Assembly: GCA_027314795.1 (NCBI GenBank)
Contig: DAHVAE010000019.1
Location: 1-11,996 of the forward strand
Length of the DNA stretch: 11,996 nt
DNA from: Candidatus Saccharimonadota bacterium
GTDB lineage: Bacteria; Patescibacteriota; Saccharimonadia; Saccharimonadales; UBA4665
Direction: 5' to 3'
A program made the translations under genes and the position numbers. Position 1 is the first letter of the stretch; each line of letters opens with the position of its first letter. The notes under the pieces were generated by a model. The model was not told the DNA's origin, did no database searches, and was given only the letters and a program-made list of their open reading frames with translations. Below, in pieces: positions 1 to 5,950 of the stretch.

Positions 1-3
1 CAA

Positions 4-801
4 GTGGGAAAACTAAACAATAATCAAGAAGGCTTCAGTGCTGTTGAGGTCGTATTAGTAGTTGTTATCGTAGCTTTAATAGGTGTAGTAGGTTGGTTAG
101 TCTACAAGAATCATAAGACTACTACGGTATCTACTGTTTCAGCCAATTCAACTAAGCCCACGACTTCAACCAATGCAACCACAACGCCTACTCAGCCAGC
201 AAGTCCTTATGCTGGCTGGCAGTCTTTCTGTTCTAGTTACGGTGGATTATGTATAAAATATCCATCAAATTGGAAACTAAAAACTACTTCAGAAGCAGCT
301 TCAACTACTATAAATACACAAGAAGCCGATATAACTAGCCCATCTGGTAACGTAACAGTTGAGTATCAGCCATACTGTACTCAATTATCTGCTCCACCTT
401 CTGGTATTTGGACTGATAATATACTTTCAGTGACTTCACCTACATCAACATCTGATTTCAAAATAGTTAAATCTGTCTCATCTTATCAAGGCAATAATAG
501 TAGCAACATTTCAGAAAGCCTATACCTGACTTCTAATTCTGTAATTCAGCAGTATGGTATTTCTGTCGGTACACATACTAATACCACAGGTAATACAGAC
601 GAGGCTGTTGCTGGTTTCTTTGCAAACGCTAAGTCAAGTGCCCCGAGTAACCTACAGTGTCTAAATGTTGGCTCACTAAAAAATAGCACAGGTGGTAATT
701 ATCTTAACTTTAGCAGTGCTGCTGACGCAAAAGCATGGTTCAGTAACAGTGAAGCTGTAACTGCCAAACAAATCTTAAGTAGTACTAGCTATAACCAATA
801 A
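4..801 (+). CDS. Prepilin-like secreted protein of unknown function
   Basis: A type IV prepilin-type N terminus is visible. A short polar leader ends in Gly10, followed by FSAVEV with Phe11 at mature +1 and Glu15 at +5, then a hydrophobic helix to about residue 34. A Thr/Ser/Pro-rich linker (about 38-67) leads to a predicted extracellular domain (about 68-265) with four cysteines (C76, C82, C124, C219). A GGLCIKYPSNWKL stretch resembles the start of PsbP-like domains, but that link is weak. Prepilin peptidase would cleave after Gly10 and leave the protein in the membrane or in a pilus. The start is taken at GTG 4 because nothing upstream is visible, so the true start may lie before the window. 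No other pilus gene adjoins it. Role unknown: minor pilin, adhesin or surface protein. Confidence 0.75.
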   Translation: MGKLNNNQEGFSAVEVVLVVVIVALIGVVGWLVYKNHKTTTVSTVSANSTKPTTSTNATTTPTQPASPYAGWQSFCSSYGGLCIKYPSNWKLKTTSEAASTTINTQEADITSPSGNVTVEYQPYCTQLSAPPSGIWTDNILSVTSPTSTSDFKIVKSVSSYQGNNSSNISESLYLTSNSVIQQYGISVGTHTNTTGNTDEAVAGFFANAKSSAPSNLQCLNVGSLKNSTGGNYLNFSSAADAKAWFSNSEAVTAKQILSSTSYNQ

Positions 802-3242: not shown

Positions 3243-3248
3243 ATGATT

Positions 3249-4376
3249 ATGACAATCTCCAACCGTCAAAGAGGGTTTTCTTTGCTTGAAGTTATTTTTG
3301 CAATCGTTATCATCGGAATAGCAATAATCATTGCTATGTATATTTATAATAAACAAAAAACTAGCCACACTTTAAGTGGACAGACACTTTTTTCAGTCCA
3401 CGGCAACTCAATTATTGGTGCTAATGGACAAAGGTATACACCTCTAGGCGTGACGGTATTCGGACTATCTAGTCCTAATTGGCAAGCTATGGAGGCTGGT
3501 GATTTAGCTCAAATTAAAGCATCGGCAAGCTTTTGGCATGCAAACATTGTGCGTATTCAGGTCGCACCTTATTACGTAGATAACAATACCCCTGGCTTTT
3601 TGCAGGCTGTTAAAAACGAAGTCTCGGTTGCTGAACAAGCTGGCTTGAACGTTATTATTAGCGCTCAGTACGAAAGGACCAATGGTTCCGTAACTCATGA
3701 TGTTAGAGCTCCTGATGAATCGAGCGTACAATTTTGGGAAACTATAGCACCAGTTTACGCTAACGATACTAGGGTTTGGTATGAATTGTTTAATGAGCCA
3801 ACTGGGCTTAAGTCGTACAGTGAATGGAAAAATGGCGGAAGTGGGTTTATAGGGATGCAAACCTTAGTCAATGATATTAGAGCAGTTGCCCCAAACAATA
3901 TTATCGTTGCCGAAAGCATTGACGATCAGCAACATTTTAAAGGTATTGCCGGCAATACACTAACTGGTAACAATATAGTCTATGCCGTACATCCATACTT
4001 TAATTCCCATGGCAGTGGCGAGCAGCCGCTACCCTGGTGGCAAAACAACTGGTCTACTACTTGGGGTTTTTTGGCTTCCAGTCAACCTCTACTAATTAGT
4101 GAATGGGGGGAGTACGAAGCCAATAAAAGCGAGTGCCAGCCTAACGCACCAATACTTGTACCAGCGTTTTTAAGCTATATTTCTTCATTACGGCTTGGTT
4201 TAATTGGCTGGTCTTTAACGCCCGGGGCAATGATTAGGGGTAATAATCTTGAGGATCCAAACGCCTTTGACCAAGGCGTTCTCTATCAGTGTCAATCAAA
4301 CACAGGCGTGACTTCGCAAGGTGCAGGTTCGGACATGTTACAATTGTTTAAAAATAACGGTAATTATCAAAGTTAG
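3249..4376 (+). CDS. Type IV prepilin-GH5 glycoside hydrolase fusion
   Basis: Numbering is from the ATG at 3249 (375 aa); an in-frame ATG at 3243 would add two residues. The leader MTISNRQRG ends in Gly9. Phe10 is mature +1 and Glu14 is +5, followed by a hydrophobic helix to about 33. This is a canonical prepilin peptidase site. From about 45 a GH5-like (beta/alpha)8 domain follows: IGANGQRYTPLGV at the first strand, Arg102 (IVRIQV), acid/base Glu183 in ELFNEP, His248 and Tyr250 (AVHPYF), nucleophile Glu285 in LISEWGE and substrate-stacking Trp321 (IGWSL). Both catalytic glutamates are kept, so activity on a beta-linked glucan or mannan is likely, but the substrate cannot be told. Prepilin processing would place the enzyme outside, in a pilus or anchored in the membrane. 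The second GH5 gene starts 5 nt after the stop. Confidence 0.88.
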   Translation: MTISNRQRGFSLLEVIFAIVIIGIAIIIAMYIYNKQKTSHTLSGQTLFSVHGNSIIGANGQRYTPLGVTVFGLSSPNWQAMEAGDLAQIKASASFWHANIVRIQVAPYYVDNNTPGFLQAVKNEVSVAEQAGLNVIISAQYERTNGSVTHDVRAPDESSVQFWETIAPVYANDTRVWYELFNEPTGLKSYSEWKNGGSGFIGMQTLVNDIRAVAPNNIIVAESIDDQQHFKGIAGNTLTGNNIVYAVHPYFNSHGSGEQPLPWWQNNWSTTWGFLASSQPLLISEWGEYEANKSECQPNAPILVPAFLSYISSLRLGLIGWSLTPGAMIRGNNLEDPNAFDQGVLYQCQSNTGVTSQGAGSDMLQLFKNNGNYQS

Positions 4377-4381
4377 AAATT

Positions 4382-5950
4382 ATGACTAGGATAGTGTCGG
4401 TAAAATCTCTTCACACTTTGTTTAACCTAATATTAATAGTTGTGTTGGCGGTTGGCAGTATATATTTCATAACCAAGCAAACCACAACTAGCTCAACCTC
4501 ATCCGTGCCTAGTCCGAGCGTACCCGCTAATAACGGAGCTGCAGTATCAAGCATCAGGATAGCTGGCAATCATTTTATCAATGCAAACGGTCAGGAGATT
4601 AAACTAATTGGCGTTGATGCAACCGGTACAGAAGATGCCTGTATACAAAATGCAGGCTTTTCTTGGTATACGCTTAATAATGCCCAGGCTAAATACATTG
4701 CTGGCTGGCATGCTGATGCCGTCAGGGTGCCACTTAATGAGGATTGCTGGTTAGGTATAAACGGATCTCCAGCTGCTTATTCAGGGGCAGCGTATAGACA
4801 GCAAATAGAGCAATGGGTCAATGATTTAAATAATAACGGCATGTATGTCATTTTAGATTTGCACTGGACGGCTCCAGCTGGTATTCAGGCTAACCAACAA
4901 TGGCCAATGGCTGATTCCGACCACTCGTTAACTTTTTGGCAACAGGTTGCTCAAGCTTTCAAGAATGATCACGCAGTATTATTTGACGTTTTTAATGAAC
5001 CTTTCTTAGGCAATAGAACTCCAACGGCTTCCAACTGGGCTTGTTGGCTAAATGGCTGTAGCTACAATAATAATTGTTTGAGCGGTAAGAAAGGCTGCAC
5101 GCCAGCTATTTATCAGACGGCTGGAGAACAGCAATTAATTAACGTCATCCGGCAAACTGGGGCTACTCAGCCAATTGAGATATCTGGGTTGGATTGGTCC
5201 AATGATCCTTGCGGACTCTATATGAAGGGTGGTAATGGCGGTAATTGCATGATCTTAAAGGAAATGCCTCATGACCCAGCGAATCAGCTTGCTTTAAGCA
5301 GCCACCTTTATTATACATCTGAGTGTCATACCCTAAATTGTTTTAATAAAGATCAGTTAATCGTATCTAAAAAGATCCCAGTCGTTATTGATGAATTTGG
5401 AGAAAAAGACTGTAAGGTAAGTTTTGTTAACGCTGTTATGAATTGGGCCGATCAAAACCAAATTTCTTATCTTGCCTGGTCTTGGAAAACTGATTCTATA
5501 AAAAGTAGCACCTGCATCGGCAGTAATATTAAAAGCACCAATGGTACTCAAATGAATCAGGAGCTCTTGTCTAATTATAATGGCGGCGTTAATACCGTAG
5601 CACCTGAACCAGCAGATATAAAGGCACATCTGTTAGCTACTTCTTGGTATCTTACTGCTGCTAAAACATTACCGTCCGCTAATTCCTCCAGTAATTTATC
5701 TGCCAAAAATAGTCAAACTAGCTGGCTGGATAACCACCATATGCTAATTGGTGAAATACTTGCAGCTATGGCGGCAATAATTATCGTTTGTTGGGTAATT
5801 ATCGGCCTGACTAAGAGGCGGAAAGGTTTGCAAACTTCATCAAGGGATGGAGAAGCTATACAACCAACGGCTAATCCATCAGAAACTACACTAACGCCTA
5901 AGACGTATGATCTTAAAGAAAATAAATCAGACAATCACCGTCAGGACTAA
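4382..5950 (+). CDS. Membrane-anchored GH5 family glycoside hydrolase (cellulase-like)
   Basis: The 522-residue protein has an N-terminal signal anchor (about 12-30), a Ser/Thr/Pro linker, a GH5 domain (about 57-425), a second membrane helix (about 454-477) and a basic then polar cytoplasmic-type tail. Conserved GH5 features are Arg115 (AVRVPLNEDCW), DLHW (159-162), acid/base Glu206 in DVFNEP, His308 and Tyr310 (SSHLYY), nucleophile Glu338 in VVIDEFGE and Trp366 (YLAWSW). Twelve cysteines in the catalytic region (for example C221, C226, C232, C239, C315, C320) suggest disulfides and an extracellular location. GH5 enzymes retain configuration on cellulose, other beta-glucans or mannans; the substrate here is unknown. 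The ATG 5 nt after the upstream GH5 stop implies one transcript. Two membrane helices would tether both ends of the catalytic domain to the cell. Confidence 0.9.
   Translation: MTRIVSVKSLHTLFNLILIVVLAVGSIYFITKQTTTSSTSSVPSPSVPANNGAAVSSIRIAGNHFINANGQEIKLIGVDATGTEDACIQNAGFSWYTLNNAQAKYIAGWHADAVRVPLNEDCWLGINGSPAAYSGAAYRQQIEQWVNDLNNNGMYVILDLHWTAPAGIQANQQWPMADSDHSLTFWQQVAQAFKNDHAVLFDVFNEPFLGNRTPTASNWACWLNGCSYNNNCLSGKKGCTPAIYQTAGEQQLINVIRQTGATQPIEISGLDWSNDPCGLYMKGGNGGNCMILKEMPHDPANQLALSSHLYYTSECHTLNCFNKDQLIVSKKIPVVIDEFGEKDCKVSFVNAVMNWADQNQISYLAWSWKTDSIKSSTCIGSNIKSTNGTQMNQELLSNYNGGVNTVAPEPADIKAHLLATSWYLTAAKTLPSANSSSNLSAKNSQTSWLDNHHMLIGEILAAMAAIIIVCWVIIGLTKRRKGLQTSSRDGEAIQPTANPSETTLTPKTYDLKENKSDNHRQD

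Follow-up and report, generated by a model that had tools for sequence, protein, structure and literature searches.

The window analysed here, an 11,996-nucleotide stretch of DNA from a Candidatus Saccharimonadota bacterium, carries at positions 3243 to 4376 a gene whose predicted product (the window GH5) joins a leader and hydrophobic helix of the type IV prepilin kind to the catalytic barrel of a glycoside hydrolase of family 5 (GH5). Based on the sequences of this protein and its relatives and on a structural model, we lean towards the view that it is a beta-glucanase that would be processed by the prepilin peptidase PilD and tethered to the cell surface by a shared display tag, rather than being built into a pilus. 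An earlier reading of the DNA without database searches (the sequence-only reading) had noticed this combination and suggested display of the glycanase on a pilus or pseudopilus. The first part of that proposal stood, in that the leader and an intact GH5 domain do occur in one protein of a reduced-genome relative of the Saccharibacteria; presentation on a pilus is no more than possible. We favour a general display tag because the leader-helix module exists in many copies with varied cargo, the anchors of the GH5 relatives are variable and the protein has no pilin head.

The features of the gene are listed below, with residue numbers (among them G9, F10, E14, E183 and E285) counted on the 375-amino-acid reading that begins at the ATG at 3249.

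3243..4376, + strand: GH5 glucanase (predicted) with prepilin (class III) leader; 377 codons, or 375 from the ATG at 3249
3249..3275, + strand: leader peptide, residues 1-9, ending RQRG; N_methyl and TIGR02532 above their cut-offs; predicted PilD cut after G9
3276..3371, + strand: hydrophobic N-terminal helix, residues 10-41, with E14 at +5; from the AlphaFold2 helix at 12-41 and the sequence
3372..3392, + strand: short linker, residues 42-48, without secondary structure; predicted local distance difference test (pLDDT) values below 50 at 38-44
3393..4373, + strand: GH5 catalytic barrel, residues 49-375; from PF00150, AlphaFold2, Foldseek and a residue check
3795-3797, + strand: catalytic E183
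4101-4103, + strand: catalytic E285

In-frame ATG codons occur at 3243 and 3249, and the frame runs uninterrupted to the stop that ends at 4376. The N-terminus has the features of a class III signal, namely a short basic leader up to G9, F10 at +1, a hydrophobic helix and E14 at +5 (Glu5 of the mature chain), as the sequence-only reading had described, and PilD is predicted to cut after G9. The Pfam N_methyl profile (PF07963) matches residues 7-32 of the 377-amino-acid reading with 31.1 bits (cut-off 21.2, E 1.5e-7), and the NCBIfam profile TIGR02532 scores 25 bits against a cut-off of 16.3. A scan for promoters was uninformative, with 9 found and 8.9 expected.

The Pfam Cellulase profile (PF00150) covers residues 71-327 of the 377-amino-acid reading with 101 bits (cut-off 23.5, E 1e-28), and the two glutamates on which the claim of an intact domain had been founded, E183 in the motif NEP and E285 in ISEWGE, are both present. 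Eight positions of the active site are conserved among GH5 enzymes (R, H, N, E, H, Y, E and W), and for these the window GH5 has R102, N182, E183, H248, Y250, E285 and W321, together with Q140 at what we take to be the place of the classical first histidine. This glutamine recurs in 21 of 23 aligned rows; across the same 23 rows the asparagine and E183 are kept in 23, W in 21, R and E285 in 19 each, H248 in 18 and Y250 in 8. The domain thus appears equipped as a GH5 enzyme requires, and glucanase activity on a beta-glucan substrate would be in keeping with these residues and with the modelled fold.

AlphaFold2, supplied with the window protein and 22 relatives, predicts a helix at residues 12-41, then a linker of low confidence and, starting at residue 49, a beta/alpha barrel (mean pLDDT 82.6; predicted template modelling score 0.81). 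E183 follows the strand at 176-180 and E285 lies at the end of the strand at 281-286, which fits the glutamates expected at strands 4 and 7. Neither the globular head of a pilin nor the second half of a pilin helix is present in this model. The top solved structures in Foldseek, which are also found by profile, are the GH5 endoglucanases CjCel5C, Cel5A (4hty) and SdGluc5_26A; in a library of viral folds the named best matches are phage GH5 enzymes, and that library gave no information on the leader. The profile searches and the structure prediction that the sequence-only reading had suggested as checks on the fusion therefore both agree with it, since the N_methyl and GH5 profiles exceed their cut-offs and the barrel is present.

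Leader-helix modules and GH5 relatives in other genomes

The window is contig C12 of a genome labelled G000 here (681,117 bases in 101 contigs, 87% complete). A leader-helix profile built from 29 segments found matches, at E 1e-4, in 93 of the 93 genomes of the same family, 481 in total and 1 to 16 per genome (median 5, with 8 in G000), counts that include true pilins. Judged by their sequences, most of these matches are on proteins other than GH5 enzymes, and among the matches listed most open frames are 100-300 codons long. A second profile, confined to the helix (+7 to +32, 35 rows), found matches in 169 of 392 genomes of the order. From 150 of these matches listed, 55 were picked by hand (mostly high-scoring ones and a few weaker ones with long frames, none of them in the profile); glycine at -1 occurs in 51/55, phenylalanine or tyrosine at +1 in 51/55 and glutamate at +5 in 43/55. 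These sequences show clear conservation of the cut site, with Glu5 present in most, not all, of the modules.

A chosen, non-random set of 20 module proteins was scanned with Pfam, and three of them have an enzyme domain above the cut-off: a GH5 (L067c), a GH26 (C10) and an M23 peptidase (L398). The peptidase (G167:C5), which comes from another family of the same order, has a prepilin-type leader in which Glu5 is replaced by alanine. Among the remaining proteins several gave PsbP-like matches below the cut-off, and others gave little or nothing. At +27 to +50 the residues S, T, N, G, P, Q and D together make up 0.65 of the sequence in 35 module proteins, 0.60 in nine GH5s and 0.50 in 13 pilin-like proteins; this composition carries no weight because the ranges overlap and the grouping is rough.

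G000 itself encodes three further GH5s with a G|F leader, two of them lacking Glu5, and one GH26 with a leader. The paralogue on contig C11 is 43-49% identical to the window GH5 and has the leader motif GFSLVE; those on C65 (35% identity, GFSIIA) and C79 (33%, GFSHLY, cut by the contig end) are the two without Glu5. In C65 and its relatives the alignment places an alanine, directly preceded by an acidic residue, opposite E285 and a glutamate opposite H248. With these positions altered, the branch, whose members include G000:C65, G009:C46 and G042:C70 (L046, L053 and L055), may act differently or not at all, and may represent a binder or a different enzyme. A GH5 from a metagenome-assembled genome (MAG) named Acidimicrobiaceae (L077, JABEUR010000111.1) falls inside this Saccharibacteria branch, which points to transfer or misbinning. 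The GH26 with a prepilin-type leader (G000:C10:1697-2740; L005, L050) scores 23.9 bits with PF02156 (cut-off 20.2) and matches endoglucanase H structures at 1.7e-22; its other matches in the 93 family genomes are partial, the longest being 25% identical over residues 83-319 (G077).

The search of related genomes that the sequence-only reading had called for recovered the same architecture in L067, G009, G031 and G042. Within the family of the window, leader-bearing GH5s were found in four of the 93 genomes searched (G000, G009, G031 and G042), and G028 has a borderline case without Glu5. The nearest public contig, L067 (from the MAG "clean414"), carries three GH5 genes in tandem: one of the C65 type, which is truncated, one related to the window GH5 (45-47% identical) and one related to the second GH5 of the window (46%). 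The last two have prepilin-type leaders. Among 97 other PF00150 open reading frames, taken from the matches listed for 379 phylum and 93 family genomes, the full leader pattern is matched by those of G042 and G009 alone, and a weaker pattern by that of G028; four of the 97 frames are cut at the 5' end. These 97 N-termini represent 51 of 56 and 46 of 52 listed rows outside G000 in two PF00150 lists, the rows left out being G457, G511, two of G483 and G438:C93 in the first list and G067:C9 in the second, while the G031 and G079:C25 genes of the second list were examined separately. Glu5 is present in seven of the nine distinct leader-bearing GH5s, the two G000 paralogues having A and Y at this position; the nine were recognised by their GF motif, and Glu5 alone is a free observation. 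A protein of 3089 amino acids with an N-terminal hydrophobic stretch and a GH5-like part is encoded in another family of the order (G114:C27; L195:325-9594).

Other GH5s of the same branch (from genus g23, G008, G040, G114, Acidimicrobiaceae and Ktedonobacter) have, as judged by eye, Sec-like or lipoprotein signals or plain anchors. On a tree of 34 GH5 domains, from which the C79 paralogue was left out as too short, the distribution of the leader and of other anchors requires five parsimony changes, at least four of them forced by well-supported branches, and the count is five whether three proteins with an undefined N-terminus (L069, L071 and L073) are scored as "other" or left out. On this tree the second GH5 of the window is sister to its L067 relative, and the two differ in their anchors. 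Since the leader alternates with other anchors on the tree, the catalytic domain is, as far as these sequences indicate, the constant part of the proteins and the anchor the part that varies.

Proposed surface tether and alternative readings

In the reading that we favour, the chain of the window GH5 would enter the membrane via Sec, PilD would cut it after G9, and the N-terminal helix would hold the mature protein in the membrane, leaving the barrel outside to cut a cellulose-like or mixed-linked beta-glucan near the cell. Some of the proteins that share the leader module may, in addition, become part of a type IV filament.

Several observations weigh against this surface tether. Since 17 of the 20 scanned module proteins have no recognised enzyme domain, the notion of "enzyme display" rests on few cases. 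Some circularity is left in the conservation of the cut site, because leader-bearing proteins served to train the helix profile and the choice of the 55 sequences was made by hand. On the GH5 tree the leader-bearing rows are weakly clustered (five changes against a shuffled mean of 6.6, with 33 of 500 shuffles as low), the anchor types were judged by eye and without a signal peptide predictor, and the changes are undirected, so that gains and losses look alike. PF01478 finds no PilD in G000, which is 87% complete; the same profile finds it in 71 of the 93 family genomes, including G032 of the same genus, and since the pilus gene cluster of G000 is cut in a pilin, which PilD follows in G009, the missing gene is probably an assembly gap. 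Finally, the retention of Glu5 exceeds the needs of a simple tether. This residue serves filament packing in prepilin helices, and incorporation of the window GH5 into a pilus is possible.

Such incorporation is the essence of the next reading, in which the protein would be a true modular minor pilin, processed by PilD and built, probably at the tip, into a type IV pilus or pseudopilus that carries the glucanase to its substrate or host. An N_methyl motif followed by a non-pilus domain is what the InterPro criterion of PMC8179133 asks of a modular pilin, and Glu5 in 7/9 leader-bearing GH5s and in 43/55 modules recovered by a model that omits this position is more than a mere membrane anchor would lead one to expect. 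G000 also has genes for pili: contig C17 encodes PilB- and PilT-type ATPases (PF00437 profile) and, beside them and recognised by sequence and order, PilM, PilN, PilO, PilC and a pilin truncated where the contig stops; in G009 a matching order runs on with a pilin, PilD and minor pilins. Cultured Saccharibacteria have two type IV pili, and deletion of PilX2 reduces host binding (PMC12206443). Two more PilB-like ATPases of G000 lie outside the C17 cluster, on C41 and C15 (L051, L052), and perhaps belong to a second filament system. Against a minor pilin stand the model, which lacks a pilin head and the second half of the pilin helix, the location of the window GH5 gene outside the C17 pil cluster, the large number of leader-module proteins per genome, the other anchors of the GH5 relatives and the absence of Glu5 from two of the nine leader-bearing GH5s, both G000 paralogues, although a capping subunit of a tip complex also lacks this residue (PMC10191384). 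On balance we find this reading doubtful.

A bolder variant is that pilin helices reduced to the stick load at least GH5 and GH26 glycanases (and, in a relative, an M23 peptidase) onto type IV filaments, which would then act as a retractable, enzyme-bearing arm. We hold this to be unlikely; if it were true, a pilus would cut polysaccharide or the envelope of a host at a distance.

The resemblance to a prepilin might instead be a relic, with the N-terminus serving as an ordinary uncleaved signal anchor in which PilD is not involved. Plain anchors seem to be used by the second GH5 of the window and by other relatives, PilD was not found in G000 and two paralogues lack Glu5, all of which would suit a relic. 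A plain anchor, however, has no need of a glycine at -1, which is found in 51/55 modules recovered by a model that does not include that position; all nine leader-bearing GH5s also have G at -1 and F at +1, although these were recognised by the GF motif and are not independent. We regard a relic as quite improbable.

A frame error or an assembly chimaera that fused a pilin start to a glucanase, as might be feared in an incomplete MAG of 101 contigs and as the sequence-only reading had itself raised, can be dismissed with little hesitation, since the frame is open, the GltX gene of the window contig is nearest to that of a same-genus genome (26 searched) and matching fusions exist on G000:C11 and in L067, G009, G031 and G042. 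The N-terminus belongs to the GH5 gene because the C11 paralogue and the gene in L067, from another MAG, share the order of leader, helix and GH5 domain.

Genomic setting of the window

The neighbouring features on the left half of the window are the following.

1..801, + strand: leader-helix-module protein (GFSAVE...GWLVY), from the contig edge; C-terminal domain unrecognised
986-1503, - strand: toxin-antitoxin pair; ParE toxin (PF05016, 3.6e-8) and a Phd/YefM-like antitoxin just below the cut-off
1755-2427, + strand: toxin-antitoxin pair; PIN-domain toxin (PF01850) and a ribbon-helix-helix antitoxin below the cut-off
4382..5950, + strand: second GH5, 522 amino acids, 5 bases downstream of the window GH5; no prepilin motif

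Judged by eye, the second GH5 is held in the membrane by a plain anchor at its N-terminus and has a further hydrophobic stretch close to the C-terminus, and its likely orthologue (L067:2061-3320, 46%) bears a prepilin-type leader. Both toxin-antitoxin pairs adjoin GH5 genes. The right half of the window encodes a response regulator, a histidine kinase, a DUF3048 protein, GltX and a last open reading frame, whose order is kept on contig C21 of G032, a genome of the same genus. The comparison covered G032:C21 over its full 19,572 bases, together with stretches of G066 and G002. On G032:C21 there was no match to the GH5 pair, to either toxin-antitoxin pair or to the open frame at 1-801, and G032 as a whole gave no PF00150 match at E 1e-6. 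As G032 keeps the genes of the right half and showed no match to the GH5 pair, the pair seems to be located in a variable segment. A misbinned contig is thought unlikely, given that GltX is nearest to its counterpart in G032 (67%, 26 genomes searched) and that the gene order is shared with G032:C21.

Relation to known systems

Cultivated Saccharibacteria depend on other bacteria, and to our knowledge little has been learned of how wild members of the group reach polymers. If the surface tether is the correct reading, the delivery of glycanases, and perhaps of a peptidase, to the surface by a leader that depends on the pilus-processing enzyme would link the pilus machinery with feeding, and some proteins entered in databases as "prepilin-type" may be displayed enzymes or other surface proteins rather than pilins. 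The paralogues with and without Glu5 would form a natural series for studying the entry of a headless prepilin helix into a filament. A rhizosphere Saccharibacterium has been described with "pseudo-pili" genes and an annotation of a two-subunit cellulosome (PMC6031116); this annotation may merit rereading in light of leader-bearing glycanases.

As an enzyme, the window GH5 shares its fold and catalytic residues with CjCel5C, SdGluc5_26A and the metagenome-derived Cel5A (4hty), its best matches by structure and profile, but is only 18-20% identical to them and has Q140 in place of the classical histidine.

As regards its N-terminus, the obvious comparison is with the modular pilins, of which more than 1,200 in 264 architectures were counted by the InterPro criterion of a motif plus a non-pilus domain (PMC8179133). 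Those named PilB and PilC in Streptococcus sanguinis likewise begin with a prepilin motif and continue with a large functional domain of a type not confined to pili (PMC8179133). In S. sanguinis PilB, however, a pilin module lies between the helix and the graft, whereas the window GH5 passes from helix through linker to barrel, and it is because this module is absent that we do not file the protein as a modular pilin: by sequence and model it is one by the InterPro criterion, not by the structural definition. The grafts named in PMC8179133 include binding domains and predicted peptidases, and neither "hydrolase" nor "glycos" occurs in the main text of that paper. Among open-licence papers in PMC we found none that combines "modular pilin" with "glycoside hydrolase"; a listing is possible in subscription journals or in the supplement of PMC8179133, which lie outside this scope. 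Closer in ancestry, Nanosynbacter lyticus, of the same class of organism, has the pilus proteins PilX1 and PilX2 with added C-terminal domains, that of PilX2 being a beta-propeller, and pili are functional in cultured Saccharibacteria (PMC12206443); the parts of that paper drawn on here name no enzymatic pilin.

A different parallel is offered by the bindosome of Sulfolobus, in which GlcS and AraS are likewise carbohydrate-handling proteins, not pilins, with prepilin leaders cut by a prepilin peptidase, and in which a pilus-like assembly system is needed for display at the surface (PMC4187195). GlcS and AraS are sugar-binding proteins of archaeal transporters, whereas the window GH5 is a putative glycanase of a bacterium. 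By analogy, the window GH5 would nevertheless appear to be functionally nearer to the archaeal bindosome than to the modular pilins.
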